Below are positions 4,360 through 26,754 of a stretch of DNA of 64,000 nt, piece after piece. Each line of letters opens with the position of its first letter. The first letter of the stretch is position 1. A program made the position numbers and the translations under genes. This DNA is from Ferrovibrio sp. (GTDB lineage Bacteria > Pseudomonadota > Alphaproteobacteria > Ferrovibrionales > Ferrovibrionaceae), in assembly GCF_019636075.1 (NCBI RefSeq), contig NZ_JAHBYG010000002.1, forward strand, positions 124,001 to 188,000. Reading direction: 5' to 3'. A model generated the notes under the pieces. It was given only the letters and a program-made list of their open reading frames with translations. It ran no database searches and had not been told where the DNA came from.

Positions 4360-4588
4360 AAACAAACTGGTAATGATGGCCAACCAGATCGGCAAGTTCT
4401 TCGCGCCGCAGACCAATATGGATGCGCCCGAGATGATTGCCGATCACATCGGAAAATTCTGGGATCCGCGTATGCGCCGGCAGATTTACGCTCATCTGGA
4501 TGCCGGTGGGGACGGTATGGATGCGCCGGTGCGCGAAGCGATTAAACGTCTGCAGGAGAGGGACAAAGCAAAGCAGACGCGTGCGTGA
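4349..4588 (+). CDS. fdsD: NAD-dependent formate dehydrogenase, delta subunit
   Basis: 79 aa small soluble protein. Starts at the ATG that overlaps the fdhD end; the longer in-frame reading from 4301 lies wholly inside fdhD and is not believed. The pattern [23 protein letters not shown] is typical of FdsD: here [10 protein letters not shown], then [20 protein letters not shown]. The protein is a minor subunit or assembly factor of the Fds complex with no known catalytic residues. Its place at the end of fdsBA-fdhD supports the call. Confidence 0.92.
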
Positions 4589-4631
4589 AGTGTGAGAGGA
4601 AATGTCCAAATACTCTGGGAGGGAGAGGACA

Positions 4632-6296
4632 ATGTCGGTTATTCAAGGAACGACGGATGGCACGCCGGGGGGCGTTGGCCTGCTGGATAAGGAGCGTATC
4701 GTAGCGCAGGCAGGGTTCAATCGATGGCTGGTGCCGCCCGCGGCATTGGCGATCCATCTCTGCATCGGCATGGCCTATGGCTTCAGCGTGTTCTGGCTGC
4801 CGCTGTCGCGTGCCATCGGCATCAACCGTTCGGTGGCTTGCCCGCCCGACATGACCCTTATGGCAGCGCTTTTCACCACCAGCTGCGATTGGAAGATCAG
4901 CGATCTGGGCTGGATGTATACCTTGTTTTTCGTGTTGCTGGGTTCAGCGGCGGCGATTTGGGGCGGCTGGCTGGAACGGGCAGGCCCGCGCAAGGCCGGT
5001 GTTGCTTCGGCGCTATGCTGGTGCGGCGGCCTGCTGATTTCGGCGCTGGGGGTTTATACGCATCAGCTCTGGATGATGTGGCTGGGTTCGGGCGTGATCG
5101 GCGGTATCGGCCTGGGGCTGGGCTATATCTCGCCGGTTTCCACGCTGATCAAGTGGTTCCCCGATCGCCGCGGCATGGCGACCGGCATGGCCATCATGGG
5201 CTTTGGCGGCGGCGCCATGATCGGCGCGCCGCTGGCCGATATCCTGATGAACTATTTCCGCACGCCCACATCGGTCGGCGTTTGGGAAACCTTCGTAGTT
5301 ATGGCGGCCATCTACTTCGTGTTTATGATGGGCGGCGCCTTCGGCTATCGCATTCCGCCGGCGGGCTGGCGTCCGGAAGGCTGGACCCCGCCGCAAGATA
5401 ACGGCAAGTCGATGATCACCAAGCATCAGGTGCATCTGAAAGATGCGCATAAGACGCCGCAATTCTGGCTGGTCTGGGCCGTGCTCTGCCTCAATGTGAG
5501 CGCAGGTATCGGCGTGATCGGCATGGCTTCGCCGATGCTGCAGGAGATTTTCGCCGGTGCATTGATCGGTCAACCGGATGTTGCCTTCGGCCAGTTGAAC
5601 GACGATCAGCGCAAGATGGTGGCGGCGATTGCCGCCGGCTTCACCGGGCTGCTGTCGCTGTTCAATATCGGCGGGCGGTTCTTCTGGGCTTCGCTGTCCG
5701 ACAAGATCGGGCGGAAGATGACCTATTACACCTTCTTCGCCCTCGGTATCGCGCTTTATGCCGCCTCGCCCTGGGCGGCGCATATCGGCAGCAAGGCTTT
5801 GTTCGTGGCCTTCTTCTGCGTGATCCTGTCGATGTATGGCGGCGGCTTTGCCACCATACCGGCCTATCTGGCCGATCTGTTCGGCACGCAATTCGTGGGC
5901 GCTATCCATGGCCGGCTGCTTACCGCCTGGTCCACGGCCGGCATCCTCGGCCCGGTGGTGGTGAATTATATCCGCGAAGCGCAAATCGCCGCCGGCGTGC
6001 CGCGTGCGCAGGTTTACGATTTCACCATGTATATCCTGGCCGGCATGCTGGTGCTGGGTTTCGTAGCGAACTTCTTTATCAAGCCGGTGGCCGACAAGTG
6101 GTATATGAAGGAAGCTGATGTGGCTGCTTTGCAGGCCAAGAATGCCGCCAGCAGCCAGCTGGTACAGCATGGTTCCTTCGGTATCGGCAAGGGCGGGCTG
6201 GATGGTCCGGCGGTTGCAGCTTGGTTGGTGGTGGGCGTGCCGATCCTGTGGGGCGTGTGGATCACGCTGTCCAAGGCCTTCGTGCTGTTCCACTAA
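4632..6296 (+). CDS. MFS transporter, oxalate:formate antiporter (OFA) type
   Basis: 554 aa inner-membrane carrier. The start at 4632 has a strong GGGAGGGAGAGG ribosome site just upstream; an in-frame ATG at 4602 has an AGAGG placed too close to use. The N-terminal membrane segment LAIHLCIGMAYGFSVFWLPL, the motif GxGLGYISPVSTLIKWFPDRRG and a second half starting WLVWAVLCLNVSAGIG are those of the OFA group of the major facilitator superfamily (OxlT-like). Lying 44 bp after fdsD and before the operon terminator, it is probably co-transcribed with formate dehydrogenase and may import formate or exchange it with oxalate. Substrate is inferred from context only. The C-terminus, with an extra hydrophobic segment, is longer than in OxlT. 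Confidence 0.85.
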   Translation: MSVIQGTTDGTPGGVGLLDKERIVAQAGFNRWLVPPAALAIHLCIGMAYGFSVFWLPLSRAIGINRSVACPPDMTLMAALFTTSCDWKISDLGWMYTLFFVLLGSAAAIWGGWLERAGPRKAGVASALCWCGGLLISALGVYTHQLWMMWLGSGVIGGIGLGLGYISPVSTLIKWFPDRRGMATGMAIMGFGGGAMIGAPLADILMNYFRTPTSVGVWETFVVMAAIYFVFMMGGAFGYRIPPAGWRPEGWTPPQDNGKSMITKHQVHLKDAHKTPQFWLVWAVLCLNVSAGIGVIGMASPMLQEIFAGALIGQPDVAFGQLNDDQRKMVAAIAAGFTGLLSLFNIGGRFFWASLSDKIGRKMTYYTFFALGIALYAASPWAAHIGSKALFVAFFCVILSMYGGGFATIPAYLADLFGTQFVGAIHGRLLTAWSTAGILGPVVVNYIREAQIAAGVPRAQVYDFTMYILAGMLVLGFVANFFIKPVADKWYMKEADVAALQAKNAASSQLVQHGSFGIGKGGLDGPAVAAWLVVGVPILWGVWITLSKAFVLFH

Positions 6297-9615: not shown

Positions 9616-11262
9616 ATGCTTAATAAGCCGGCCTTTCCGCAATCCGTGATCGATGCTTATGCCAAGGCGGGATCCTGGCCGCAGCGCGATATCTATGCCT
9701 TTTTGTCGGATGCGGCGGAAAATCAGCCGAACAAGACTTTGATCGTCGATCGCTTCGGTCGCCTCAGCTATGCCGAGGCGTTGGCGCAGACCGATGCGCT
9801 TGCCGGTAATCTGCAAAGCCTGGGGGTTGGACGCGGCGACCGCGTGGCGGTGCAGTTGCCGAACTGGCGCTATTTTCCCTTGATGGAATATGCCTTGGCG
9901 CGGCTTGGCGTGGTGATCGTGCCGCTGCCGCCGATCTATCGGCAGCGCGAATTGCGCCTGATGCTGGGTCTGGCCGAGCCGGTGATGGCGATCTGCCCGG
10001 ATAGCTTTCGGGGCTTCGATCATGCCGGCATGTTCCATGATTTGCAGAAAGAAATCCCTAGTCTGCGCCATTTGGCGGTGATCGGCGAAACGCGCCCAGA
10101 TGGTGCGTTGGATTTCTTCGATCTGTTGCGGCCCAACAAGGCGGACCTGCCGCCGCCGCTGGATCCCAATATCGTTACCGAAATCGCCTTCACTTCAGGC
10201 ACCACTGGCGAGCCGAAAGGCGTGATGCATACCGCCAACACCAATTTCTGTCCGCTGATCAATCTGATCGAGGATCAGAAACTGGGCGCCGATACCGTGG
10301 TGCTGATGGCTTCCACCTTTGGACATCAGACCGGTTTTGCCTATGGCGGACAATTGCCGGTGATTGTCGGCGGCACCGTCGTATTGATGGAGCGCTGGGA
10401 TGCCAAACAGGGTGCGGCGCTGATCGACCAGGAGAATGTTACCTGGATGATGGGCGCCACGCCTTTTCTGCAGGATCTGACCGATGCTGTGGAATCCGGC
10501 GCCGGACATTGTCGGTCTCTCCGCATCTTCCTCTGCTCCGGCGCGCCGATACCGCGTTCACTGCTGATCCGCGCGCAGAAGGTGCTGGGCGCGCATGTGG
10601 TGTCTGGTTGGGGAATGACCGAGGTGGGGCTCACCACGCTCAGCCGGCTGGATGATCCGGCGGAAAAGATTTTCGGTTCCGATGGCCGGCCTTTGCGCGG
10701 CATGCAGATTCGGGTGGTGGATGCCGATGACAAGCCCTTGCCCGATGGCGAAGAGGGCGAATTGCAATGCCGTGGGCCTACGTTGTTCGCCGGATATTGG
10801 TTGCGGCCCGATGTGACGGCAGCAAGCTTTGCCGATGGCCGCAATGCCGGCGATGGCGGATGGTTGCGCACCGGAGATCGCGCACGCCGCGATGTCGATG
10901 GCTATATCCGCATCACAGGCCGCAGCAAGGACATCATCGTGCGCGGCGGCGAGAATATTCCGGTGGTGGAAGTGGAAGACCTGCTGCACAAGCATCCGCG
11001 TGTGCAGGTGGCCGCTATCGTGGCAATTCCCGATCCACGCCTGCAGGAACGCGCCTGTGCCGTGATCGTGACGCGCGATGGCGGTAGTTTCGACATGGCC
11101 CAGATGTTGGCATTCCTGGAGCGGGAGCATCTGGCAAAGCAGTATTTCCCAGAGCATTTGGTGGTGATGGATGCCATGCCGATGACGCCGAGCGGAAAGG
11201 TGCAGAAATACATTCTGCGCAAGAAGGTTCTCGAAATCATAGGAGTGAGCGATGTCGCTTGA
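9616..11262 (+). CDS. AMP-dependent acyl-CoA ligase (AliA-like)
   Basis: 548 aa adenylate-forming enzyme that activates a carboxylate to its CoA thioester through an acyl-AMP. ATP-binding P-loop TSGTTGEPKGVMHT, the adenine/acid motif GWGMTEVGLT, hinge TGRSKDIIVRGGENI, and C-terminal lysine in PSGKVQKYILRKK are intact. The sequence class is that of cyclohexanecarboxylate and medium-chain acyl-CoA ligases; the acid is not known. No clear ribosome site precedes the ATG. It overlaps the TRAP small-permease gene by 11 bp, which suggests that the TRAP transporter imports the acid this enzyme activates. Confidence 0.87.
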   Translation: MLNKPAFPQSVIDAYAKAGSWPQRDIYAFLSDAAENQPNKTLIVDRFGRLSYAEALAQTDALAGNLQSLGVGRGDRVAVQLPNWRYFPLMEYALARLGVVIVPLPPIYRQRELRLMLGLAEPVMAICPDSFRGFDHAGMFHDLQKEIPSLRHLAVIGETRPDGALDFFDLLRPNKADLPPPLDPNIVTEIAFTSGTTGEPKGVMHTANTNFCPLINLIEDQKLGADTVVLMASTFGHQTGFAYGGQLPVIVGGTVVLMERWDAKQGAALIDQENVTWMMGATPFLQDLTDAVESGAGHCRSLRIFLCSGAPIPRSLLIRAQKVLGAHVVSGWGMTEVGLTTLSRLDDPAEKIFGSDGRPLRGMQIRVVDADDKPLPDGEEGELQCRGPTLFAGYWLRPDVTAASFADGRNAGDGGWLRTGDRARRDVDGYIRITGRSKDIIVRGGENIPVVEVEDLLHKHPRVQVAAIVAIPDPRLQERACAVIVTRDGGSFDMAQMLAFLEREHLAKQYFPEHLVVMDAMPMTPSGKVQKYILRKKVLEIIGVSDVA

Positions 11263-11755
11263 AGCGGGTTTCACGCCTTTGGAACGCCGGGTAATCCTGC
11301 CATCCAGTGTGGCAGGCGGCATCGCGCTGATTCTGCTTTCTGCCGTTGTTACCGGCGAGGTGATCCTGCGCGCCATGGGCATCGCCGTGGTGGGCGCGAA
11401 TGAAATCGGCGGCGTGCTGCTGGCGCTGCTGATCTTCCTGGCGGTGGGTTACACGCAATCCATCGGCGGCCATGTCTCGATTGAAGCCGTGGTCAACCTG
11501 TTTCCGCCGAAAGGCCGGCTGGTTTGCGAAACCCTGTCCAATCTCATTTGCGGCGCTTTCAGCCTGGTACTGACCTGGACATCGGCACAGGAAGCATTTG
11601 TCAGCTATCAGCGCATGGAATACCAGTTCGGCACCATGGAATTCCCGCTCTGGCCGGTGAAGGCAGTGATCGCTTTCGGCATGGCGTTGTTGGCTCTGGC
11701 CTATGCCTGTTCGCTGTATCGCAATGCAGTGAATTTCAGGAAGGGTACGCCATGA
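11252..11755 (+). CDS. TRAP transporter small permease (DctQ type)
   Basis: 167 aa with four hydrophobic segments, as in DctQ. The ATG has AGGAG 7 nt upstream. The family helps the large permease in sodium-driven uptake of organic acids presented by a periplasmic binding protein. It overlaps the preceding ligase by 11 bp and the following dctM by ATGA. Confidence 0.88.
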   Translation: MSLEAGFTPLERRVILPSSVAGGIALILLSAVVTGEVILRAMGIAVVGANEIGGVLLALLIFLAVGYTQSIGGHVSIEAVVNLFPPKGRLVCETLSNLICGAFSLVLTWTSAQEAFVSYQRMEYQFGTMEFPLWPVKAVIAFGMALLALAYACSLYRNAVNFRKGTP

Positions 11756-13050
11756 CCGCAGGCCTGGTCGTTACGCTGATTTTTGCAATCGGCATCATCA
11801 CTGGCATGCCGATTGCTTTCGTGCTGATCATCTCGTCGTTCAGCGGCTTGGTGATGCTGCGCGGTTTCGATGTGGCGCTGAGTGCGCTCAGCACCATGCC
11901 CTACGGAAAATCCACCGATATCGCGCTATCGGTGATTCCGCTCTTCATCCTGATGGGCTACCTCGCTTCGCAGGCGGGAATTAGCGAAAAAGCCTATCAG
12001 ATTGCCTATCGCTTCGTTGGCCATCTGCGTGCGGGCCTGGCGATTGCTACGGTTTTTGCCTGTGCGGGATTTGCCGCCACGTCGGGTTCCTCGGTGGCTA
12101 CTTCCGCAGCAGTAGGTAAAATCGCCTTCACCGAGATGAAGCGCTTTCGCTACAATGATGCAATCAGCGCAGGTACTATCGCGTCGGCCGGTTTGCTCGG
12201 CATCATGATTCCGCCCAGCATCATGCTGGTGGTGTATGGCATCGTCACGCAAACCGATATCGGCCGGCTCCTGCTGGCCGGCATCCTGCCGGGGATTCTC
12301 ACGGCGTTGGTTTTTTGCATCGGCCTTTATGTGCTGGCGCTGATTCGGCCCGATTTGATGCCGGTGGCCAATGAACGCTTTTCCTGGCGTGATCGTATGG
12401 TGGGCCTGAAGGATGGCAGCGGCATACTGATCCTGTTCACTGTCATCATCGGCGGCCTTTATTCGGGTCTGTTCACCGTGAACGAGGCGGCTGGCGTGGG
12501 CGCGGCCGCGGCTTTTGCGCTGCTCTTGCTCAAGCGCGGCTTCGATTGGAAAGCCTTGCTGATCGGCGGCAAGGAAGCCGTTGCCAGCACCGCGATGATA
12601 TTCCTGATCCTGATCGGGGCCGGTTTGTTCGGCCAATATGTTGCGCTATCAGGCTTGGCCGGCACGGTTACCAAGCTGATCACGGGCTCGGATTTGCCGC
12701 GCTATCTGATTCTGGTGCTGATCCTGCTGGCCTATATTCCGCTCGGCATGTTCCTCGAGCCGATCTCGATGTGTTTGATCACGCTGCCGATCGTTTTTCC
12801 CGCCATCAAGGCGCTGGGTTTCGATCCGGTCTGGTTTGGCGTGATCATCGTAAAGATGAGCGAGTTGGCGAATATCACGCCGCCATTGGGTGTGAATGTA
12901 TTCGTCATCAAATCGATACGGCCGGAAATCCAGCTATCCACGGTGTTCCGTGGCGCCAGCCTGTTCATGCTTTTGGAAATCATCACCTTGGTGATCCTGG
13001 TGATCTTTCCGGAAATCACCTTGTTCATCCCGAACTTGATGGCCAAGTGA
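11752..13050 (+). CDS. TRAP transporter large permease (DctM type)
   Basis: 432 aa, about twelve membrane segments, the transport subunit of the TRAP system. Start taken at the ATG that overlaps the dctQ stop; the open frame from 11524 runs through dctQ and is ignored. Family landmarks: SGSSVATSAAVGKIA, AGTIASAGLLGIMIPPSI, and ANITPPLGVNVFVIK near the C-terminus. Confidence 0.92.
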   Translation: MTAGLVVTLIFAIGIITGMPIAFVLIISSFSGLVMLRGFDVALSALSTMPYGKSTDIALSVIPLFILMGYLASQAGISEKAYQIAYRFVGHLRAGLAIATVFACAGFAATSGSSVATSAAVGKIAFTEMKRFRYNDAISAGTIASAGLLGIMIPPSIMLVVYGIVTQTDIGRLLLAGILPGILTALVFCIGLYVLALIRPDLMPVANERFSWRDRMVGLKDGSGILILFTVIIGGLYSGLFTVNEAAGVGAAAAFALLLLKRGFDWKALLIGGKEAVASTAMIFLILIGAGLFGQYVALSGLAGTVTKLITGSDLPRYLILVLILLAYIPLGMFLEPISMCLITLPIVFPAIKALGFDPVWFGVIIVKMSELANITPPLGVNVFVIKSIRPEIQLSTVFRGASLFMLLEIITLVILVIFPEITLFIPNLMAK

Positions 13051-13084
13051 AGAGAAGAAGCAAAACCATGGGAGGAGTATGGAA

Positions 13085-14158
13085 ATGACTATCTCTAAAC
13101 TGCTGAAGACGGGTGCTTTGTTGCTCCCGTTTGCATTCGCCGGTGCGGCCGAAACCGCACAGGCTCAGGTCAATCTCGTGTATTCCACATATGTGGCGCA
13201 GGGTTCCACCTCCAATCGCCAGTATGAAGTGTTTCTCGACGAGCTCAGCGCCCGCACCAACGGCTTTGTGAAGGTGAAGGACAAGCTCTATCTCTCGGCT
13301 CTGATGAAGGCCGGAGATCATCTTACCGGCGTTGGCAAGCGGGTTGCCGATGTGGGCTATTTCTGCACCGGCTACACGCCGGCTCTGTTGCCGCTTACCT
13401 CGATGGCGGAACTGCCCTATGTGAGCGACAAGGGCGATGCGGTTTCTGCGGCACTGCATGAAATGTATGAAACCAACGATGCGCTGCGCCGCGAATACCA
13501 TAAGCAGAATGTTGAGCTTGTGGCCTTCGATGCGCCTTCGGCCACCATCATCGGCGTCAACAAGGAGATCAAGTCGGCTGCCGATCTGAAGGGCCTCAAA
13601 GTGCGCGCCTATGGCGATCTGGGCAAGATTGCCGGCAAGGCCGGCGGCATGATCCCGGTGCCGATGTCGACCGCCGAAATCTACACCAGCATGCAGACCG
13701 GCGCGATCGATGGCTATATCGGCATTCCGCTCTGGATGCCGGGGCCGGAAAACTGGCTGCCGCTGACCAAGACGCTGATCGCCCCGGCCATGGGCACCTA
13801 CTATACCTGCGGCTTGGTGATGAACCTCGATCTCTACAAAGGCCTGCCTGACAATGTGAAGCAGGAAATGGCCAAGATGCGGCGCGAATTCCCCAAGAAG
13901 TCCATCGCGCTGGTGGAAGAGGGCGATGCTGCGACCGTGAAGGATGCCCAGGCCAAGGGCGTGAAGTTCTATCGCTTCACCCCGGCGGAAGTGGACGCCT
14001 GGAAGAAGACCACGGATTACGATGCGTTGAAGGCGGAATGGATCAAGACCCGCCAGGCCCGTACCGATGCCAATGTGGAAGAATACCTGAAGCAGTATCA
14101 GGCGATTCTGGCCAAGTATGTGCCGCAATCCAACTACGAGCAGCGGTTCCCGAAGTAA
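13085..14158 (+). CDS. TRAP transporter substrate-binding protein (DctP type)
   Basis: 357 aa periplasmic protein with a Sec signal peptide (SKLLKTGALLLPFAFAGAA, cleavage probably after AQA). Start placed at 13085 because GGAGGAG ends 7 nt upstream; the ATG at 13079 lies only 1 nt from it. The ligand-binding arginine region (KGLKVRAYGDLGK) and the following segment MSTAEIYTSMQTGAIDGYIG match the family. Ligand unknown, presumably a carboxylate given the flanking CoA ligases. A long hairpin follows the stop. Confidence 0.9.
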   Translation: MTISKLLKTGALLLPFAFAGAAETAQAQVNLVYSTYVAQGSTSNRQYEVFLDELSARTNGFVKVKDKLYLSALMKAGDHLTGVGKRVADVGYFCTGYTPALLPLTSMAELPYVSDKGDAVSAALHEMYETNDALRREYHKQNVELVAFDAPSATIIGVNKEIKSAADLKGLKVRAYGDLGKIAGKAGGMIPVPMSTAEIYTSMQTGAIDGYIGIPLWMPGPENWLPLTKTLIAPAMGTYYTCGLVMNLDLYKGLPDNVKQEMAKMRREFPKKSIALVEEGDAATVKDAQAKGVKFYRFTPAEVDAWKKTTDYDALKAEWIKTRQARTDANVEEYLKQYQAILAKYVPQSNYEQRFPK

Positions 14159-14165
14159 ACCTTGG

Positions 14166-14200
14166 TCGGCGCGCCGGTGTATCCGGCGCGCCGATTGTTT
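14166..14200 (+). terminator. Stem-loop after dctP (terminator or attenuator)
   Basis: Perfect 12-bp stem, TCGGCGCGCCGG (14166-14177) with CCGGCGCGCCGA (14183-14194), loop TGTAT, then TTGTTT. It lies 8 bp after the dctP stop and 34 bp before the next gene of the same direction, so it probably attenuates read-through and protects the transporter mRNA end. Confidence 0.75.
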
Positions 14201-14227
14201 CTGGCGTAAAGCATGAAGGGGTTAGGC

Positions 14228-15379
14228 ATGGCGGATGATGATATTGCGATCGTCGGGATTGGGCAGACCAAGCCGACACGGCGCGCCGACCGCGACATTC
14301 GCGCGCTCTCCATCGAGGCCGTGCAGATGGCGCTGGATGATGCAGGCATTGCGCCCAGCGAAGTGGATGGCATTATCAGCGACGGCGTGATCATGCCGGG
14401 CAGCGTGCCGCGCGAATACATGGCGGCGCAATTCGGCATCACCCGGCGTTTTGATGGTGGCATGTCTTATGGCGGCACAGGCATTGCCTGCGCCCCCATG
14501 CTGGCCCGCATGGCGCTGCGCGCCGGCCTGGCCGATGTAGTCGTATTCTATTTCGGCGTGGATTGGGGCAGCCGGGCCGAGGGCCCATATGGTTTCCACA
14601 ACATGTATCCCGCCAAGATGGCTTTCGAGAAGCCCCAGGGTTTCAATGGCCAGCCATCTTATTTCGCGCTCTGGGCGCGGCGCTACATGCATGAATATGG
14701 CCTTACCGAGGCCGATTTGGCAGCCATTGCCACCACGCAGCGCGCCAGTGCGTTGCGCAATGGCCGCGGCCAGGTGCAGAAGGCACTCAGCATGGATGAT
14801 TATTATGCCTCTCGCATGATTTCCGATCCGCTGCGTGCAGCCGATTGCTGCCTGATCACCGATGGCGCCGTCGCTTTCGTGATGACGCGGATGGATCGCG
14901 CGCGGGATTGCCGCAAGAAACCGATCAAGGTGATGGGCTGCGGCTATGCCAGCGAGCCCTTGAGCGGCGACGACATCTTCACCCAGAAGCCGGCGCAATT
15001 GACCATGCCTGGCGCCAAGGAAGCCTGCGGGCGCGCCTTGCGCGAGGCCGGTATCGGGTTGGGTGCGGTGAATTTCGCCGAGATCTACGATTGCTTTACC
15101 ATATCCTGCCTGATGCAGATCGAGGACCTGGGCTTCTGCAAAAAAGGCGAAGCGGGCGCTTTCGTGCGTGAGCAGGGCACGGGTATCGAGGGCAAGTTGC
15201 CGGTGAACACCCATGGCGGGCTATTGTCGCATTCCTACCTGCTCGGCGCCGAGCATGTGGTGGAGGCCGTGCGGCAATTGCGCGGCGAGGCCGGCAATGC
15301 CCAGGTGAAGAATGCGGAAATCGGCATGGTAACCGGGCTATCCGTGCCCGATTACGGCGTATTGCTGTTGGGTCGGTGA
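14228..15379 (+). CDS. Thiolase-fold (SCP2-thiolase/Ltp-like) protein, possible retro-aldolase
   Basis: 383 aa from the ATG at 14228 (AAGGGG before it; none before the in-frame ATG at 14213). Thiolase fold: N-terminal DIAIVGIGQT and C-terminal NTHGGLLSHSYLLGAEH. The segment that normally carries the nucleophilic cysteine (CASG) reads YGGTG at 81-85, so the cysteine is replaced and ordinary thiolysis is unlikely. The segment IYDCFTISCLMQIEDLGFC is typical of the steroid-degradation Ltp2-like branch, whose members are retro-aldolases that work with a DUF35 partner; here Y288 and Y337 are candidate catalytic tyrosines. The next gene is a DUF35 protein. Alternatively it is a non-catalytic thiolase-like subunit. 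Confidence 0.75.
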   Translation: MADDDIAIVGIGQTKPTRRADRDIRALSIEAVQMALDDAGIAPSEVDGIISDGVIMPGSVPREYMAAQFGITRRFDGGMSYGGTGIACAPMLARMALRAGLADVVVFYFGVDWGSRAEGPYGFHNMYPAKMAFEKPQGFNGQPSYFALWARRYMHEYGLTEADLAAIATTQRASALRNGRGQVQKALSMDDYYASRMISDPLRAADCCLITDGAVAFVMTRMDRARDCRKKPIKVMGCGYASEPLSGDDIFTQKPAQLTMPGAKEACGRALREAGIGLGAVNFAEIYDCFTISCLMQIEDLGFCKKGEAGAFVREQGTGIEGKLPVNTHGGLLSHSYLLGAEHVVEAVRQLRGEAGNAQVKNAEIGMVTGLSVPDYGVLLLGR

Positions 15380-15804
15380 GCGATATGGCTGAATTGAACG
15401 AGATCAATCCCGAATTCCATGGTTTCTTCGCGCATCTGCGTGAGGGGCGTGTTGCTTTTCCGCATTGTAATGCCTGTGGCAAGCTGCATTGGTATCCGAT
15501 GAAGATTTGCCCGCATTGCCAAAGCAGCGATATCGATTGGAAACCGATGCGCGGCGCTGGCGAATTGTGGAGCTGGACCGTGGTGCGGCATCCGTTTTCG
15601 CCGGCTTATAACGACAAGGTGCCTTATGTGGTGGCGATGGTCACCTTTGCCGAGGCGCCGGGCATTCGCTTGATCGCCAATATAGAAGACGTGCCGCTGG
15701 ATAGCCTGAAAATCGGCATGTCGCTGGAACTGGCCCAGCCGAACAGCAACGAAGCGATGCCGCAGGTGCTGTTCCGGCCCAGCAAGGCGCTTAAGGCGGC
15801 ATGA
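15376..15804 (+). CDS. DUF35 OB-fold/zinc-ribbon protein, partner of the thiolase-like protein
   Basis: 142 aa. N-terminal rubredoxin-like zinc ribbon with two CxxC pairs (HCNACGKLH and ICPHCQSSD) and a C-terminal OB-fold that in related proteins binds the CoA part of the substrate. Such proteins form complexes with thiolase-like enzymes (ChsH2-Ltp2 type aldolases, acetoacetyl-CoA/HMG-CoA synthase complexes). Starts at GTG overlapping the previous stop (GTGA); an ATG at 15385 is also possible. Tight coupling on both sides supports a complex with the 14228 product. Confidence 0.85.
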   Translation: MSDMAELNEINPEFHGFFAHLREGRVAFPHCNACGKLHWYPMKICPHCQSSDIDWKPMRGAGELWSWTVVRHPFSPAYNDKVPYVVAMVTFAEAPGIRLIANIEDVPLDSLKIGMSLELAQPNSNEAMPQVLFRPSKALKAA

Positions 15805-17435
15805 TCGACGATACGGCCTTTCGCACGCTGGATGATGCCTTCCAGGCTGTGGTTCGGCGCAAGCCTGGCCTGGCTTGTATCGCTGTGCCGCCGGCACGGG
15901 GCCGCGATTACGCGCCGGATGGCCTGGAATGGAGCTATGGCGAAACCGCCGAACGGGTGGAGGCGGCAGCCCAGGCCTATGGCCGTGCTGGTTATGGCCA
16001 TGGCCATCGGGTGGCGCTGTTGCTGGAAAACCGGCCGGATTTTCTGGTGCATTTCCTGGCGCTGAACCGCCTTGGGTGTTGTGCCATCCCGATCAATCCG
16101 GATTACCGCGCGCATGACATGGCCTATCTGCTGGAGCATTCCGGCAGCGACCTGGCGGTGGTGCTGGATCATCGTGTGGCTGATGTGCTGGCCGTGGCGC
16201 GAGGCATTGCCGGCAAGCCGCCGGTTTGCGGATTGTCGCATATGGCAGAGCTGCCGCGTGCACGCCGCGCCGCGTCTTCGACGCCGCCGGATCGAGGCAG
16301 CGAAACCGTGCTGCTCTATACCTCGGGTACCACCGGCCTGCCCAAAGGCTGCATGATCGACAACGAATATCTGTTCTTTGCCGCCGCACGATATAATCGT
16401 GCCGGCGGGGCCATGGCCGTGCGGCCGGAAGCCGAGCGGCTGTATAATCCGCTGCCGCTTTTTTATGCCAACAGCGTGTCGATCTCCAACCCGGCGATGA
16501 TCCTCACCGGCAATTGCATGATCTTTCCGGATCGTTTCCATCCGAAAAGCTTCTGGGCAGACCTGGCCGCCACACGCGCCACCATGATCCATTATCTCGG
16601 CATCATTCCGCCGGTAATGATGAACATGCCGGCAAGCCCCGAGGAGCGGGCCCATGGTGTGCGTTTCGGTGTGGGGGCCGGCATCGATCCGGCCTTGCAT
16701 GGCGCTTTCGAGAAGCGGTTCGGCTTTCCGCTGATCGAGGTCTGGGGCATGTCGGAACTTGGCATCGTCACGGCAGCCAATCACGAGCCGCGGCATATCG
16801 AAACCCGCAGCATCGGCCAGCCGCTCTGGGATGTGGAAATCGGCTTGCAGGATGATGCCGATGCGCTGGTGCAGGGGCCGGGGCTAGGCGAATTGGTGAT
16901 CCGGCGTAAAGGCAACGATCCGCGCAAGGGTTTCTTCCGCGAATATTTCCGCGACCCGGAAACAACAGCCACCACCTGGCGCGGAGGCTGGTTCCATACC
17001 GGCGATATCGTGCGGCGTGACGAACAGGGCGTGGTGCATTTCGTCGACCGCAAGAAACATATGATCCGCCGTTCGGGCCAGAATATCGCGGCGGCCGAGA
17101 TCGAGGCCTGCCTGCGCGAATTGCCCGGCATAACCGAAGTTGCCGTGCTGGCGGTGCCTGATGAATTGCGTGAAGAAGAAGTGATGGCGTGCATCATTCC
17201 GCGCGACGGCGCAGGCAAGGATCGTGCTGCTGCCCAGGCCATTGTGGAAGCCAGTTTGCAGCGCTTGGCGTATTTCAAGGTGCCGGGCTGGATTTTGTTC
17301 GTTGATCGGTTGCCCACCACTGCCACGCAGAAGCTGCAAAAAACGCAAATATTCAAGGCGGGCGAGGATCCGCGCCAGCGTGAGGGCGTATTCGATTTCC
17401 GGCCTCTGAAGCAGCGCGCGCCGAAAGGGAGCTGA
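15801..17435 (+). CDS. AMP-dependent acyl-CoA ligase (CaiC-like class)
   Basis: 544 aa adenylate-forming ligase. P-loop YTSGTTGLPKGCMID, motif EVWGMSELGIV, hinge DRKKHMIRRSGQNI and C-terminal TATQKLQKTQIFK are intact. The class resembles crotonobetaine/carnitine-CoA ligases, but the acid is unknown. It overlaps the DUF35 gene by ATGA and ends one base before the next gene. With the ligase at 9616 it gives this cluster two activating enzymes, perhaps for the parent acid and for a cleavage product. Confidence 0.85.
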   Translation: MIDDTAFRTLDDAFQAVVRRKPGLACIAVPPARGRDYAPDGLEWSYGETAERVEAAAQAYGRAGYGHGHRVALLLENRPDFLVHFLALNRLGCCAIPINPDYRAHDMAYLLEHSGSDLAVVLDHRVADVLAVARGIAGKPPVCGLSHMAELPRARRAASSTPPDRGSETVLLYTSGTTGLPKGCMIDNEYLFFAAARYNRAGGAMAVRPEAERLYNPLPLFYANSVSISNPAMILTGNCMIFPDRFHPKSFWADLAATRATMIHYLGIIPPVMMNMPASPEERAHGVRFGVGAGIDPALHGAFEKRFGFPLIEVWGMSELGIVTAANHEPRHIETRSIGQPLWDVEIGLQDDADALVQGPGLGELVIRRKGNDPRKGFFREYFRDPETTATTWRGGWFHTGDIVRRDEQGVVHFVDRKKHMIRRSGQNIAAAEIEACLRELPGITEVAVLAVPDELREEEVMACIIPRDGAGKDRAAAQAIVEASLQRLAYFKVPGWILFVDRLPTTATQKLQKTQIFKAGEDPRQREGVFDFRPLKQRAPKGS

Positions 17436-17436
17436 T

Positions 17437-18477
17437 ATGCCGCAAGCTTTGATCGTTGGCGATGTAGGTATCGTCGGCGCCAATATGCGCAAGCTGCTGG
17501 CCGCTACCCCAGGCTGGCACAGTATCGGCGTATCGCGGCGCGCATTGCCCGAAGATCCCGATCATATCGCTGCCGATCTCACCGACCGCTCGGCCGCGCT
17601 TGCCATGGCGCCCAAGCTGGGCGGCATAACGCATCTTTTTGTTTGCGCGCGCGTGCCGGGCAAGAATCCTTCCGATGAAGCACGGGTGAATCGCCTGCTG
17701 ATGGAGCATAGCCTCGATGCTCTGGCGGCGGCGAAGGCACCATTGCAGCGCGTGGTGCTGGTGCATGGCACCAAATGGTACGGTTCGCATCTCGGTCCTT
17801 ACCGCGTGCCGGCCAAAGAAGATCATCCGCGCCACATGCCGCCGAATTTCTATCACGACCAGCAGGATGTGGCGGAAGCCCGCTGCCGGCAGGGCGGCTG
17901 GACCTGGTGTGCGTTGCGGCCCCATACTGTGTGGGGCTTTTCCACCGGCACTGGCAACAACCTGATCATGCTGCTGGCGGTTTATGCCGCGTTGTCGAAA
18001 CAGCTTGGTTTGCCGCTGTGCTTTCCCGGGCCTGCCGCCACCTGGAGCAAGTTCTCGCAATCCACCCATGTGGACCTGCTCAACCGTGCCATGCTATGGG
18101 CGGCAATCGCACCGGAAGCGGCCAATGCGGCTTTCAATGTCACCAACGGGGATGTTTTCCGCTGGTGCGACCTTTGGCCACGTGTTGCGGCGTTTTTCGA
18201 CATGTCGACCGGTCCGGTGCAAACCTTGTCGCTTGCCACCATGATGGCCGATAAGGCGCCGGTCTGGGATGCCGTTGTGGCCAAGCATGGTTTGCAGCCC
18301 TACAGCATGGCGGACCTTGCCGGCTGGGCCTATGGCGATGGCTTGATGGCCAATACCTGGGACGATGTTTCGTCCACGGTGAAAATCAGGCAGGCCGGTT
18401 TCGCCGAGGCCATCGACAGCGAGGAAATCTTCCTGCAATCGATGGCCGAATTACGGCGAAACCGTATTATCCCCTAA
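17437..18477 (+). CDS. PRISE-family reductase (progesterone 5-beta-reductase/iridoid synthase-like)
   Basis: 346 aa SDR-related protein with a Rossmann N-terminus (ALIVGDVGIVGANM). It has the two PRISE signatures: HGTKWYGSHLG with K113, and NFYHDQQD with Y139, matching the Lys and Tyr that position the enone substrate in plant 5-beta-reductases. The family reduces activated C=C bonds, such as steroid or monoterpene enones, with NADPH. Last gene of the ligase/TRAP/thiolase/DUF35 operon, 1 bp after the ligase. The substrate is not known; the context suggests an alpha,beta-unsaturated intermediate. Confidence 0.78.
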   Translation: MPQALIVGDVGIVGANMRKLLAATPGWHSIGVSRRALPEDPDHIAADLTDRSAALAMAPKLGGITHLFVCARVPGKNPSDEARVNRLLMEHSLDALAAAKAPLQRVVLVHGTKWYGSHLGPYRVPAKEDHPRHMPPNFYHDQQDVAEARCRQGGWTWCALRPHTVWGFSTGTGNNLIMLLAVYAALSKQLGLPLCFPGPAATWSKFSQSTHVDLLNRAMLWAAIAPEAANAAFNVTNGDVFRWCDLWPRVAAFFDMSTGPVQTLSLATMMADKAPVWDAVVAKHGLQPYSMADLAGWAYGDGLMANTWDDVSSTVKIRQAGFAEAIDSEEIFLQSMAELRRNRIIP

Positions 18478-19911: not shown

Positions 19912-20904
19912 TCATGCGCCTGTAGCGCGAATATGGTTGTCCCAAGCAATTGGCAGATTGCGGCGCCGACCATCGGGCAGGATCATATCGCCGCGCCCGC
20001 CGCTGAACAGAAATCCGCCTTGCAGCGGCGCGGCGCCGCAGATATCGGGCATATACAGGCTGCTGCCATCGGGGTGATGCACAGCCAGCCCGCCATGGGG
20101 CGAGGTGATATAAAGGCCATCGCTCCCAGTCGCCAACGATCCGCAATAGCCGCGCAGATCGCCCTGCGCCTTGCCAAGCGGCTGCCATTCGAGATCGTCG
20201 CCGCGCCAGAAAACCAACAGCGGAATCCCCGGATCGGCATTGCCGCGATCCTGCGCGCCGACGGCCACGCGACCATCACTCAACACTGCCATATGGCGCA
20301 GGCTCAGCCGCCTCAATTCGTCGGGTACTGCGCGCAGGCTGAGAATTTCGCCATTGGCAATACCCATCAGAATGAGACTGGATTTATCCAGTGCATCGCC
20401 GCCATTGGCCACCGCCAGCTGGCCATCCAGCAGCAGCAATTCGTGGGGATCGACCCCTTCGGTAGGCCATAATGCGATCCGCTTGCCGGTTTGCGCTTCC
20501 AGCACGGCGATACAGCCCAGGCCATCGGCATCGCTGGCCGTGGCGGCAATGCGATGCTCATCCAGAAAGATGGCGTGGCCGCCAAAGGCCAGATCCTGGC
20601 TGGGCCAGAGTGCGGTTGCGCCGGTTTGCAGATCAAGCCGCAGCAGCCAGTGATCGGGCCGCCGCGCAGCCAGCACGGCGCTTTTACCATCGGGCGCGAT
20701 GCCCATGCCATGGCCGCGACCGGGAAGTGCATGGCGCCAGAGCGGCGTGCCAGCGGCATCCAGGCCGAACAGCGCATCGCCCGTTACATCGGCGCCGCAG
20801 GTAAGCAGAGCGGCTTTGGCTTGCTGGGCCGCAAAAGCCATGCGCGATGCAAATGGCAGGGCAATAGCTGCCCCCAGCAGGCCGCGCCGACTGATCCGCG
20901 TCAT
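19912..20904 (-). CDS. DUF1513 periplasmic beta-propeller protein (Tat-exported)
   Basis: 330 aa from the ATG at 20904, 1 nt after the upstream imelysin stop; in-frame ATGs at 20916 and 20925 are alternatives. The N-terminus MTRISRRGLLGAAIALPFAS is a twin-arginine signal. The rest has repeated short strands of propeller type and the DUF1513 landmarks HPDGSSLYMPDICGAAP and DVTGDALFGLD. Function unknown; the family is regularly the last gene of imelysin/di-haem oxidoreductase iron clusters, as here. Confidence 0.82.
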   Translation of the reverse strand: MTRISRRGLLGAAIALPFASRMAFAAQQAKAALLTCGADVTGDALFGLDAAGTPLWRHALPGRGHGMGIAPDGKSAVLAARRPDHWLLRLDLQTGATALWPSQDLAFGGHAIFLDEHRIAATASDADGLGCIAVLEAQTGKRIALWPTEGVDPHELLLLDGQLAVANGGDALDKSSLILMGIANGEILSLRAVPDELRRLSLRHMAVLSDGRVAVGAQDRGNADPGIPLLVFWRGDDLEWQPLGKAQGDLRGYCGSLATGSDGLYITSPHGGLAVHHPDGSSLYMPDICGAAPLQGGFLFSGGRGDMILPDGRRRNLPIAWDNHIRATGA

Positions 20905-20905
20905 G

Positions 20906-21928
20906 TCAGTCGCCATCCAGCGCATTGAAGCCCACTGGAATTTCCAATGTAGGCGCCAGCTTTTCAGCCAGCATGGATTTCACCGCAAGTAGATCGGCGC
21001 GGAGCTTTTCAAGGCCAGGCCGGGCAGAGGGGTCGGCTAGCGCATCTTCAAGATGCAATGCGGCGGTGCGGCTTGCCAGATCATCGAACCGCTTGCTCAG
21101 ATCGGCTGCCAGAGCGCGATCCGGCACTTTGGCGGCCATGGCGGCAAACAATTCGCGCGCTGCGGCGATATTGGCGGCGATGGCGGCGCCAGACATGCCG
21201 CTGCGCCAATATTCGGCAGCCATCGGCTTCTGTTCGCGCAGGGATTTTCCCATCGGTCGATTGAGCTTGTGATCGGCTACAAGCTCCACTGCCGCGTGCA
21301 GTGCCTTGAACAGATCAAGCGTGGCCTCTTCAGGCCCGGCATAAACCACCAGATCACCCTTGGCTGCCACGAATTGTTGGGCGTAATTGCGGCCCTTGCC
21401 CCAATCGTCGTTGATATCCTTGGCCATGCCGGCAAGGTTTTCGGTTGCCGCCTGCAGCCATTGGCAACGGAAGGCATCGTCTTCCAGTTTAGCGGTTTCC
21501 TTGCCATCGAACAGCACGCGTTCCAGCGCGCCCATGCCCTGCACGGCGATGCTGCCGGCATGGAAATCGGGCAGCTTGCCGGAGGCGAATAATTCGTTCA
21601 TCTGGCGCGGAATGCTGTTGCGCGGATCGGGCCAATAGGCGAAGCGCTGATAGCGATTGAACAGCAGCACCGGGCCAAAGCGCAGATGTTGCACGCCCTG
21701 CCAGGCCAGCATTGCCTGCTGCCAGCCCCTGCGCAAAGCCTCGCGCTCGCCGCAGCCGGGCTTGGCGGCATCGGCGAAGGCACGCGTGGTGCTTTGCAAC
21801 TTGGCCAGGCGCGGCAGGATATGCGCCTGCACGGCCTCGCTATTGATGGCGCGATAATCCGGCGCGGCGTGCACAGCCTGGGTATAACAAAGGCTGGCCA
21901 GCAGCAGGGCGAACAGCATCTTGCGCAT
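20906..21928 (-). CDS. Imelysin-family periplasmic protein, second copy
   Basis: 340 aa with a Sec signal peptide (MRKMLFALLLASLCYTQAVHA). Helical imelysin (peptidase M75-like) fold, thought to bind iron or haem in the periplasm and lacking proven protease activity. The family motif GxHxxE appears as GMGALE at 131-136, so the histidine is replaced by glycine while the glutamate stays; the first paralogue (23310-24578) keeps it. One-base overlap with the di-haem protein gene upstream. Confidence 0.85.
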   Translation of the reverse strand: MRKMLFALLLASLCYTQAVHAAPDYRAINSEAVQAHILPRLAKLQSTTRAFADAAKPGCGEREALRRGWQQAMLAWQGVQHLRFGPVLLFNRYQRFAYWPDPRNSIPRQMNELFASGKLPDFHAGSIAVQGMGALERVLFDGKETAKLEDDAFRCQWLQAATENLAGMAKDINDDWGKGRNYAQQFVAAKGDLVVYAGPEEATLDLFKALHAAVELVADHKLNRPMGKSLREQKPMAAEYWRSGMSGAAIAANIAAARELFAAMAAKVPDRALAADLSKRFDDLASRTAALHLEDALADPSARPGLEKLRADLLAVKSMLAEKLAPTLEIPVGFNALDGD

Positions 21929-23313
21929 TACAGCGACTCCAGAAATGCCAGTAGGGCTTCGCGGTCTGATCCGGATAGCGCGATTACACGGTCGCGTGCC
22001 TTGGCTGCCTCGCCGCCATGCCAGAGAACGGCCTCCAGAATGCCATCGGCGCGGCCATCATGCAGCAGGTAGAAATGGTCATTCACCCGCCGTGTCAGGC
22101 CTAGGCCCCAAAGCGGCTGGGTGCGCCACACTCTTCCCAGCGGCGAGGATCCGTCCAAGCCGTTGGGGTCTGCCAGATCGTCGCCCATATCGTGCAGCAG
22201 CATGTCGGTATAGGGCCAGATGGTCTGGCCCGAAAGCTCGGGGAAGCTGTCGCTCCGGCCGGTGACGTGTTTGGGCGTGTGGCAAGCGGCGCAACCGATA
22301 TCGTTGAACAGCTTCTGGCCTTGGCGCACTGCCGGTGCGGCAATGCCCTCGCGCGCCGGCACCGCCAGATGATGGGCATAGAATACCGTGAGATCGAACA
22401 GCTTCTGCGGCACTTCCGGTTCATTGCCTTCCGAACCATGCGGGGCCTCGCGGCAGGTTTTCTGTGCCGGCGTGCAATCGCCATAATCCTCCGGGAAGAT
22501 CGGCGTGGAAAGCCCCATATCGTTCTTGAATGCGGTGGCGGTCTGGTCCGCCACAGAGGCTGTACCGGTCTTCCAGCCGAAACGGCCAAGCTTCATGGCG
22601 CCGCCTTCCGATGGGCTGGGCACGCGGCGGAAGCGGCCGCGTATGCCATCGCCGTTCAGATCCTCGGGATCGGCGCGCGCCATGATATCGGCTTCAGGAA
22701 TCAACTCCAGCAAGCCCATGCCGATCATCGGCGGTGCGATACGCGGCGCTATGGTTGTGGTGCGATCAAACGGGCCATAACCGGGATCGACCAGCTTGTA
22801 ATGCGGTTTGCGCAGCGTCACCACCATGCCATCGGTCAGGGTTATCGGGCGCAACTCATGGGTGGTTTCCACATTGGCTTCGGCGGCATGGCCCTGGGTG
22901 CCGAAGGTTTGCAGCTGATGGCCATAAACCGGATCGGCCGAGCCATCGGCGCGCGCCAGGGCGAAGAGCAACGAGGATGGGGTTTCACCGGCAGCAGGCG
23001 GCCGACCGCGTCCATCCTTCAAATGGCAGGCCTGGCAAGCGCGTGCGTTGAACAGCGGGCCCAATCCATCGGAACTCTTGGTGGAGGAGGGCGCTGCCAC
23101 CCAGAGCTTGCGGAACACGCCATCGCCGACCTTGAAATCGAGTTGCTTGTCGAATGGCAGATTGCCGGAAGGATTGGAAAAGGCGCTGCGGTTGCGTGGG
23201 CCTTTGCTGGTGGCGGCACCGCCGGGCTTGTCCTCGCCGGTATCGGAGAGGCTGTTGCCCGCAAGCGCGACGCCAAGGGCCAGAAGCGTACTGAACAGAA
23301 AAAAGCGGTTCAC
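21928..23313 (-). CDS. Di-haem oxidoreductase (DUF1111, DHOR family) c-type cytochrome
   Basis: 461 aa exported protein (signal MNRFFLFSTLLALGVALAG). Two haem c sites: C93-QA-C96-H97 and C341-AA-C344-H345. The family (often labelled thiol oxidoreductase) is related to MauG/cytochrome c peroxidases; its role is unsettled, and oxidation of Fe(II) or re-oxidation of imelysin-bound iron is a proposal only. Starts at GTG overlapping the upstream stop (GTGA), so it is coupled to the first imelysin. Confidence 0.87.
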   Translation of the reverse strand: MNRFFLFSTLLALGVALAGNSLSDTGEDKPGGAATSKGPRNRSAFSNPSGNLPFDKQLDFKVGDGVFRKLWVAAPSSTKSSDGLGPLFNARACQACHLKDGRGRPPAAGETPSSLLFALARADGSADPVYGHQLQTFGTQGHAAEANVETTHELRPITLTDGMVVTLRKPHYKLVDPGYGPFDRTTTIAPRIAPPMIGMGLLELIPEADIMARADPEDLNGDGIRGRFRRVPSPSEGGAMKLGRFGWKTGTASVADQTATAFKNDMGLSTPIFPEDYGDCTPAQKTCREAPHGSEGNEPEVPQKLFDLTVFYAHHLAVPAREGIAAPAVRQGQKLFNDIGCAACHTPKHVTGRSDSFPELSGQTIWPYTDMLLHDMGDDLADPNGLDGSSPLGRVWRTQPLWGLGLTRRVNDHFYLLHDGRADGILEAVLWHGGEAAKARDRVIALSGSDREALLAFLESL

Positions 23314-24578
23314 TTTTTACCAACCTTGTCAGGTGAATCCAGGCTGTCGGACCCCTCGAAGGCGACCTTGCCGAGTTGCAGCGCCGCGCTGATACGCTCC
23401 AGCGTGCGGGTTTGATCGATCAGGGCTGCGATGGCGCCCTCCAGTACGGCAGCGCCTTCGGCATTGCCCTCGGCCAGCATCTGATCGTAACGCTCCACGG
23501 TTTCGGCACGCTGCTTCACCTTGCCCATGGCAGCCAACGAGGCATCAAGCTTGCCGCGCATTTCGCTATCCAGTGCCGACGCCTTTTCGGCCACCAACGC
23601 CGTCAGCCCCGGGCCGCTGATCTTGCCATACCGCCCGAGATAGATCGCCTGCATGCCCACTACATTGTAGTAATGCGAATTGTGAGTGTTGTCTGAGAAG
23701 CAATCATGCTCTTCCTCGGGATCATGCAGCAGCAGGCCCAGCTTCATGCGTTCGCCTGCCAATTCGCCATAGGCCAGGCTGCCCAGGCCGGTAACCATGG
23801 TGGCAATGCCGGCATTGGGATCGGCCAGCAGATGCTTGCGCGCTTCGCCTTGCGGGCCCCATTGCCCAGCCATCCAGGCCAGATCGTCCACCAGCAATTG
23901 CGTGGCCACCAGCAGATAGGCGGCGCGGCGGTCGCAATTGCCATTGGTGCAGGCGGCGCCCTTGGCATAATCGGTCCAGGGCCGGTTGCCGGCGCCGGGG
24001 CCGGTGCCGTTCAGATCCTGGCCCCAGAGCAGAAACTCCACGGCGTGATAGCCGGTGGCCACATTGGCTTCCACGCCGCCCACTTCCTGCAGGCCACGCA
24101 GCGTGCGCCAGGTGATGCGGCTGGTATCCACCTTGCGGCCGCCGATTTCCAGTTTGGTATTGGCGATGATGTTGGCGCCGTACCACGGATTGGCATCCGA
24201 GCTTTCGCCGTATTTTTCGCTGTCGACGTAATCGATCAGGCCTTCATCCAGTGGCCAGGCATTCACCCGGCCTTCCCATTCATCCACGATCGGATTGCCG
24301 AAGCGATACACCTCGGTTTGCTGATAGGGCACGCGGGCTGCAATCCAGGCGTCGCGCGCGGCGATCAGGTTCTGCTCGGATGGCTTGGCGGTCAGGGTTT
24401 CCACCTTGCGCAGCAGATGCCGTGCACTGCGCAGCGCATCGCCATACATTGCCTGGGCGATGTCGCTATAGGTATTCAGCACGGCTTCAGGGGTGGCGGC
24501 GCGGGCTGGGAGGCTGGCCAGAGCCAGGCTGGCGGAAACGAACAGGGCGGCGATCAGCGGCTTGAACACGGCTGGCAT
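23310..24578 (-). CDS. Imelysin-family periplasmic iron-uptake protein (IrpA-like)
   Basis: About 422 aa. Signal peptide VFKPLIAALFVSASLALASL with AXA before ATPEA. The iron-binding GxHxxE motif is intact: G176-Y-H178-A-V-E181 in a context typical of IrpA-like imelysins (YHAVEFLLWGQDLNGTG). Start placed at 24578; a GTG at 24569 is equally possible because CCGAGG touches the ATG but is 9 nt from the GTG. First gene of the four-gene cluster and behind a Fur-like palindrome, so iron-repressed uptake is inferred. Confidence 0.88.
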   Translation of the reverse strand: MPAVFKPLIAALFVSASLALASLPARAATPEAVLNTYSDIAQAMYGDALRSARHLLRKVETLTAKPSEQNLIAARDAWIAARVPYQQTEVYRFGNPIVDEWEGRVNAWPLDEGLIDYVDSEKYGESSDANPWYGANIIANTKLEIGGRKVDTSRITWRTLRGLQEVGGVEANVATGYHAVEFLLWGQDLNGTGPGAGNRPWTDYAKGAACTNGNCDRRAAYLLVATQLLVDDLAWMAGQWGPQGEARKHLLADPNAGIATMVTGLGSLAYGELAGERMKLGLLLHDPEEEHDCFSDNTHNSHYYNVVGMQAIYLGRYGKISGPGLTALVAEKASALDSEMRGKLDASLAAMGKVKQRAETVERYDQMLAEGNAEGAAVLEGAIAALIDQTRTLERISAALQLGKVAFEGSDSLDSPDKVGKK

Positions 24579-24721: not shown

Positions 24722-25486
24722 TTAATCGGTATGTTCGATGCTGAGCACCACATGATCGGCGGCAAAGGCGGCGCGCACGAACTCGATCGGCCGGCCTTGG
24801 GGGTCGATATTCACCGTCTCGCTTTGCAGGGTGGCGCGGCTGCGCGGCAATTGCAGCAGGCGTGCCTCCGCGGCATTGAGCAGGCGCGCGCTCACGCGGG
24901 TGGAGCGGCGGCGATAATCGGCTACGCCGCCGGCCGCCAGCGCGGCCGTGATGGTGCCATGGCGGCGAAACAATTCCGGCATATTGGGAAAGCGCTCGGC
25001 GGGAAAGTAACGCTGGCTTACGCTGATGCGCTTGCCATCGGCGCGGTTCAGGGTTTCCAGCTGCCAAAGCTCGGCGCCGAGCGGCAGACCCAGGGCGCGG
25101 GCAATCTCGGCCGGTGCCTTCACGCGCTCGGCTGAGATCAGTTCGCGCAAGGCGGTTTTCTGCTTGGTTTGCAGGTTTTCGGTGAAGCGCGTGCGCGGGC
25201 CCAGGGCATAATCCAGCATGTTGTCGGCCACGAACATGCCGCGGCCCTGCTCGATACGGATCAGGCCCAGCTGACCCAGCCGCGCCATTGCCTGGCGCAC
25301 CGTGTGGCGGTTCACGCCGAAGCGTTCGGAAAGCAGTTTTTCGGTGGGCAAACGTTCGCCCGGACCGATTTCGCCGGCACGGATTTCACGCTCCAGCCTG
25401 CTGGCCACCTGGCGCCAGATCGCCATGCCATTACCGCGTTCGATCCCAGGCCCGCGTTCGATAATTCCGCCAGAGTCCGTGCCCAT
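24722..25486 (-). CDS. phnF: GntR-family (HutC/UTRA) phosphonate regulator PhnF
   Basis: 254 aa. N-terminal winged helix-turn-helix (about 20-90; GERLPTEKLLSERFGVNRHT) and C-terminal UTRA ligand domain (about 110-250). Divergent from phnG with the 122-bp gap holding a HutC-type operator. The length, UTRA domain and position match PhnF regulators of C-P lyase operons, which repress until phosphonate or phosphate starvation signals arrive. The effector is not known. Confidence 0.88.
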   Translation of the reverse strand: MGTDSGGIIERGPGIERGNGMAIWRQVASRLEREIRAGEIGPGERLPTEKLLSERFGVNRHTVRQAMARLGQLGLIRIEQGRGMFVADNMLDYALGPRTRFTENLQTKQKTALRELISAERVKAPAEIARALGLPLGAELWQLETLNRADGKRISVSQRYFPAERFPNMPELFRRHGTITAALAAGGVADYRRRSTRVSARLLNAAEARLLQLPRSRATLQSETVNIDPQGRPIEFVRAAFAADHVVLSIEHTD

Positions 25487-25506
25487 GTCTCAGATCCGCA
25501 ATGCCG

Positions 25507-25524
25507 CTGTCATAAAAACTTCGC
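25507..25524 (+). promoter_or_regulatory. Candidate Pho box before phnG
   Basis: CTGTCATAAAA (25507-25517) is a perfect first half and linker of the PhoB consensus CTGTCATA(A/T)A(A/T)CTGTCA(C/T); the second half ACTTCGC is poor. PhoB control of phosphonate genes is well established in other proteobacteria, so the site is plausible though half-degenerate. Confidence 0.45.
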
Positions 25525-25570
25525 GCTGACATGGCTTGATAACGCAGCCACACATCGCTAACGATATAGA

Positions 25571-25593
25571 TGTCTAGACAAATTTAGACAAAT
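25571..25593. promoter_or_regulatory. PhnF operator: palindrome plus 10-bp-spaced direct repeat
   Basis: TGTCTAGACA (25571-25580) is a perfect palindrome whose core GTCTAGAC fits the HutC-subfamily GntR consensus GTnTAnAC. TAGACAAAT occurs at 25575-25583 and again at 25585-25593, exactly one helical turn apart, giving a second half-site. It lies 16 bp before the phnG start codon, so bound PhnF would block initiation of the phn operon. Confidence 0.65.
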
Positions 25594-25608
25594 GCGCAAG
25601 AGGTCTGT

Positions 25609-26115: not shown

Positions 26116-26123
26116 GAGGCCGT

Positions 26124-26753: not shown

Positions 26754-26754
26754 C

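Follow-up and report, generated by a model that had tools for sequence, protein, structure and literature searches.

Evidence from residues, fold and phylogeny for a predicted DUF35-dependent retro-aldolase of the thiolase fold in Ferrovibrio sp.

Organization of the locus

The window, a stretch of 64,000 nucleotides from Ferrovibrio sp. (assembly GCF_019636075.1, contig NZ_JAHBYG010000002.1, positions 124,001 to 188,000), contains an acyl-CoA ligase gene followed by DctQ/DctM/DctP, an aldolase-like gene, a DUF35 gene, a second ligase gene and a PRISE reductase gene. An operon is likely because all of these genes lie on the plus strand and are separated by gaps of -11 to +69 bases. Orthologues of both ligases are present in L024, a locus from a Hyphomicrobiales metagenome-assembled genome (MAG).

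9616–11262, plus strand: acyl-CoA ligase; closest model, below the cut-off, cyclohexanecarboxylate-CoA ligase; 71% orthologue in L024
11252–14158, plus strand: TRAP transporter (DctQ 11252–11755, DctM 11752–13050, DctP 13079–14158)
14164–14197, plus strand: near-perfect GC-rich hairpin of 14 pairs between DctP and the aldolase-like gene, then TTGTTT
14228–15379, plus strand: predicted CoA-ester aldolase of 383 aa, thiolase fold without the nucleophilic cysteine (sequence matches, predicted fold)
15385–15804, plus strand: stand-alone DUF35 partner of 139 aa, zf-ChsH2 and OB_ChsH2_C (domain matches)
15801–17435, plus strand: acyl-CoA ligase (AMP-binding), overlapping the DUF35 gene by 4 bases; 72% orthologue at the same place in L024
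17437–18477, plus strand: PRISE-type reductase (progesterone 5-beta-reductase/iridoid synthase-like)

The sequence AAGGGG is located 6 bases before 14228, and the upstream ATG at 14213 is therefore less likely to be the start of the aldolase-like gene. The sequence-only reading had described the DUF35 gene as overlapping this gene; a 4-base overlap exists only if the GTG at 15376 is used, and initiation at the ATG at 15385, which has GGTGAG upstream, leaves a 5-base gap. The DUF35 protein contains a C4 zinc motif (C-x2-C-x10-C-x2-C; C28, C31, C42 and C45). The DctP family was confirmed by HMM, and DctQ and DctM are named from their position and similarity to genes in L024 and in a second related locus, L053; matches of the TRAP binding protein, searched for a clue to its ligand, were numerous and weak, and none was telling. 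The hairpin preceding the aldolase-like gene (-31 kcal/mol, z -4.95) may be an attenuator that causes partial transcription termination.

Elsewhere in the window are a molybdopterin oxidoreductase of the formate dehydrogenase type with an MFS transporter and a gene whose sequence suggests the name FdhD-like (701–6296), an imelysin/di-haem oxidoreductase/DUF1513 cluster of the iron-uptake type with two imelysins (19912–24578), and a GntR/UTRA regulator with the first part of a phosphonate C-P lyase operon (24722–28739; PhnG and PhnI confirmed).

Fold and active-site residues

The best PDB match of the aldolase-like protein by phmmer is Ltp2 (6OK1_A, E 4e-53), followed by 4U4E and Sal (9MYR_A), with real thiolases ranking lower; the best match of the DUF35 protein is 6OK1_B. 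The aldolase-like protein shares only about 32% identity with any enzyme that has been assayed. An AlphaFold2 model of the aldolase-like protein (mean pLDDT 76.9, pTM 0.85) matches 6OK1_C with Z 46.5 and an rmsd of 2.2 over 359 residues. The model is unreliable at loop 115–140, which overlaps a loop disordered in crystals of CtSal and TcLtp2, and Y337 lies in a stretch of only moderate confidence; a single-sequence fold of the DUF35 protein (pLDDT 41) was left unused. 4U4E and the thiolases 7YVY and 6ESQ trail 6OK1 by less than 2 Z units, and because thiolases come this close the fold alone cannot decide function; the residues do.

14474–14476, plus strand: codon of G83, position of the thiolase nucleophilic cysteine (alignment with 7YVY and CtSal Gly89)
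15086–15088, plus strand: codon of Y287, proposed base, equivalent to TcLtp2 Tyr294 and CtSal Tyr302 (alignment; PMC12329534)
15092–15094, plus strand: codon of C289, equivalent to CtSal catalytic Cys304 and TcLtp2 His296 (alignment; PMC12329534)
15236–15238, plus strand: codon of Y337, equivalent to the TcLtp2 acid Tyr344 and to CtSal Gln352 (alignment)

In two MAFFT runs the CASGG cysteine of 7YVY aligned with G83 of YGGTG (residues 81–85), exactly where the sequence-only reading had placed the lost nucleophile. The two tyrosines it had singled out also align with those of TcLtp2, Y337 at the end of SHSY as numbered and the other being Y287 rather than 288 (IYDCF spans residues 286–290). The SCP2-type thiolase signature of a nucleophilic cysteine and the HDCF and GHP histidines is thus absent, its positions being occupied by G83, Y287 and Y337, with both histidines (HDxF, GHP) replaced by tyrosine. 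Glycine likewise replaces the thiolase cysteine in Sal (PMC12329534), and Q142 corresponds to Gln161 in Sal's proposed oxyanion hole. Because G83 leaves room for a beta-hydroxyl where thiolases hold their nucleophile, thiolysis should be impossible by the usual route.

The earlier description of an Ltp2-like enzyme without the cysteine was incomplete, as it overlooked C289 within YDCF. In Sal, Y302F nearly abolished activity, and C304A, C304S and C304H abolished it (PMC12329534); in Ltp2 the acid is Tyr344. Because the cysteine matching C289 is catalytic in Sal, the query protein combines Sal's Tyr-Cys with the second tyrosine of Ltp2 (Tyr/Cys/Tyr) and, as aligned, holds both candidate acids, C289 and Y337. 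Another conserved active-site cysteine had been named beforehand as a finding that would count against the aldolase assignment; C289, which matches the catalytic Cys304 of Sal, is literally such a residue, yet it leaves the aldolase assignment unrefuted. Aldol rather than thiolytic chemistry, the supported part of the earlier proposal, is the reading with the best support, given the glycine at the nucleophile position, both Ltp2 tyrosines, the adjacent DUF35 gene and the best matches to Ltp2 and Sal.

Condensing enzymes without the cysteine sometimes decarboxylate malonyl- or beta-keto-CoA esters, and the pair could act as such a decarboxylase, an unlikely reading. TbSLP, which also carries YDCF, decarboxylates malonyl-CoA very slowly (PMC12329534), but CtSal, which shares this Tyr-Cys, lacks that activity; moreover, both histidine positions are tyrosines in the query protein, and no carboxylase gene is adjacent.

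Phylogeny and gene neighbourhoods

A quick tree of 61 rows, several of which have long branches (CtSal, IpfD, Rhodococcus ruber), separated 54 Gly-type rows from seven Cys-bearing thiolase rows with SH-aLRT 100. The query belongs to a clade of seven rows (SH-aLRT 99), all Tyr/Cys/Tyr, that further contains L024 (82%), L053 (63%), L054 (61%), L055, L056 and an R. ruber plasmid gene; the alignment retains C289 of YDCF in every member. With good support, the tree sets this clade apart from Ltp2, Sal and the Cys-bearing thiolases. Grouping it with Ltp2 proper was rejected (p-AU 0.024, for a group picked after the tree was seen). Holding all second-Tyr rows together, without IpfD, was not rejected (p-AU 0.40), so that the second tyrosine may be a single old invention and the histidine of Ltp2 a later change.

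Comparison of the aldolase-like gene with its 82% orthologue gave dN 0.12 and dS 1.02, which places the gene under purifying selection. This selection and the clade-wide conservation of Y287, C289 and Y337 argue against a thiolase that has lost catalysis and serves only as a scaffold, a reading which the loss of the nucleophile might otherwise suggest and which we regard as very improbable.

The aldolase-like gene had no match at E below 1e-85 in 17 further genomes from the order, of which nine belong to the same genus; the gene is therefore patchily distributed and may have moved horizontally. The source genome contains only two DUF35 genes, each beside one of its two YDCF/Tyr-type homologues and neither beside its two Cys-bearing homologues. 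The only other aldolase/DUF35 pair in this genome (L058 1–1227, cut by the contig end) combines YDCF with SEGY and resembles the other Tyr/Cys/Tyr clade. Two PRISE copies with strong matches are present in the genome (window 17437–18477 and L058 1242–2297), each beside an aldolase/DUF35 pair. As a conserved partner in general PRISE was rejected, the pair being present in only 1 of 40 PRISE-homologue neighbourhoods elsewhere. AtuA family genes, of interest for a terpene link, occur near L053 and L064 and are absent from the window; two AtuA genes are located elsewhere in the source genome.

At nearly every locus examined, a DUF35 gene adjoins the aldolase-like one. By tblastn with a limited reference set, a match to acyl-CoA dehydrogenase, enoyl-CoA hydratase, MaoC or hydroxyacyl-CoA dehydrogenase was found within ~3 kb at none of eight query-clade loci (two of them near-duplicates), whereas six of the eight loci from the other Tyr/Cys/Tyr clade and all four YDHF loci had one. 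Hydratase and acyl-CoA dehydrogenase neighbours are characteristic of steroid-type aldolases. The query-clade loci carry acyl-CoA ligases (the window, L024, L053 and L054) or amidohydrolases (L055–L057), a layout reminiscent of ipfDE-ipfF in ibuprofen degradation. A single cluster in L024 (1674–13223) contains two aldolase/DUF35 pairs of different clades together with a TRAP transporter, a cyclase, an FAA hydrolase and acyl-CoA ligases. Because this cluster and the source genome each hold one member per Tyr/Cys/Tyr clade, one might speculate that two successive cleavages occur in one pathway, in the way that Sal and Ltp2 act during the breakdown of bile acids.

KshA_C (PF19298) had no match in the source genome, which is evidence against aerobic 9,10-seco steroid breakdown and leaves room for partial or anaerobic routes. 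The top PDB match and the retention of both tyrosines would suit an ordinary Ltp2 acting on a C3 steroid side chain. We nevertheless consider this highly unlikely given YDCF in place of YDHF, the rejected grouping with Ltp2 proper, the lack of hydratase and acyl-CoA dehydrogenase neighbours and the missing KshA family.

Proposed reaction and comparison with known systems

We favor the reading, at a probability of roughly 70%, that the two genes encode a thiolase-fold retro-aldolase that depends on DUF35 and takes a beta-hydroxyacyl-CoA as substrate. In the proposed scheme, the TRAP system would import a carboxylate and one of the two ligases would form its CoA ester. Within the putative complex, Y287 would deprotonate the beta-hydroxyl, the bond between C-alpha and C-beta would break, and C289 and/or Y337 would protonate the CoA enolate, so that acetyl-CoA or propionyl-CoA is released together with an aldehyde or a ketone. 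That no hydratase or dehydrogenase gene is adjacent to make the beta-hydroxyl weighs against the retro-aldolase reading; the hydroxyl is probably already present or made elsewhere, and the substrate is probably not a steroid. Aldol reactions are reversible and residues cannot tell their direction, and the adjacent PRISE reductase could follow a condensation. A synthetic role, in which an acyl-CoA enolate would attack an aldehyde or ketone, is nonetheless improbable, as the TRAP importer and two CoA ligases look catabolic and the related systems are catabolic. More tentatively, at somewhat less than even odds, the whole clade may consist of hydratase-independent, non-steroid Tyr/Cys/Tyr retro-aldolases that convert imported, CoA-activated hydroxy-acids straight to an acyl-CoA and a carbonyl compound.

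Genes of this sort are usually annotated as thiolase or acetyl-CoA acetyltransferase, and if the clade is aldolase, many of these labels in Alphaproteobacteria refer to the wrong reaction. The chemistry would, if the reading is true, extend beyond steroids and ibuprofen. A Tyr/Cys/Tyr site would also offer a way to examine what serves as the general acid, which is tyrosine in Ltp2 and cysteine in Sal.

Among known systems, the steroid aldolase Ltp2-ChsH2(DUF35) of Thermomonospora curvata (6OK1) shares the thiolase fold, the missing nucleophilic cysteine, both catalytic tyrosines and the C4 DUF35. Apart from its YDHF motif, sequence divergence and separate clade, it differs from the query system in that the query DUF35 is stand-alone, with no steroid cluster or hydratase. 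The bile acid aldolase Sal-Shy(DUF35) of Comamonas testosteroni (9MYR) shares the Tyr-Asp-Cys motif and the oxyanion-hole glutamine; it has Gln352 where the query protein has Tyr337, a C3H1 rather than C4 zinc site, and a fused MaoC hydratase that the query system lacks. IpfD-IpfE, from ibuprofen degradation in Rhizorhabdus wittichii (pIBU218), resembles the query system in combining a ligase, a Cys-less thiolase fold with Gly and both tyrosines, and DUF35, without beta-oxidation genes. It differs in having YDAF (FYDAF) instead of YDCF and a DUF35 protein without zinc cysteines, and in that Rieske dioxygenase genes, which would make the hydroxyl, adjoin ipfDE. IpfD is genetically required for ibuprofen use and is credited with propionyl-CoA release, ipfDE being called a thiolase in that work. 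In the pIBU218 sequence IpfD (L065 23229–24827) has no thiolase cysteine and two tyrosines, and IpfE no zinc cysteines; judged by its residues, the enzyme called a thiolase in the ibuprofen pathway probably works as a retro-aldolase. In Mycolicibacterium neoaurum, the Atf1-ChsH4 operon (PMC10398937) resembles the query system in joining an aldolase gene to those of a stand-alone DUF35 protein (138 aa) and a reductase, but its substrate is a sterol side chain. The Ferrovibrio pair is predicted to be mechanistically like Ltp2 and Sal while belonging to neither by the tests made. Most likely, the kind of enzyme is a known one, and what is new is a branch that mixes Tyr/Cys/Tyr and has no steroid link.
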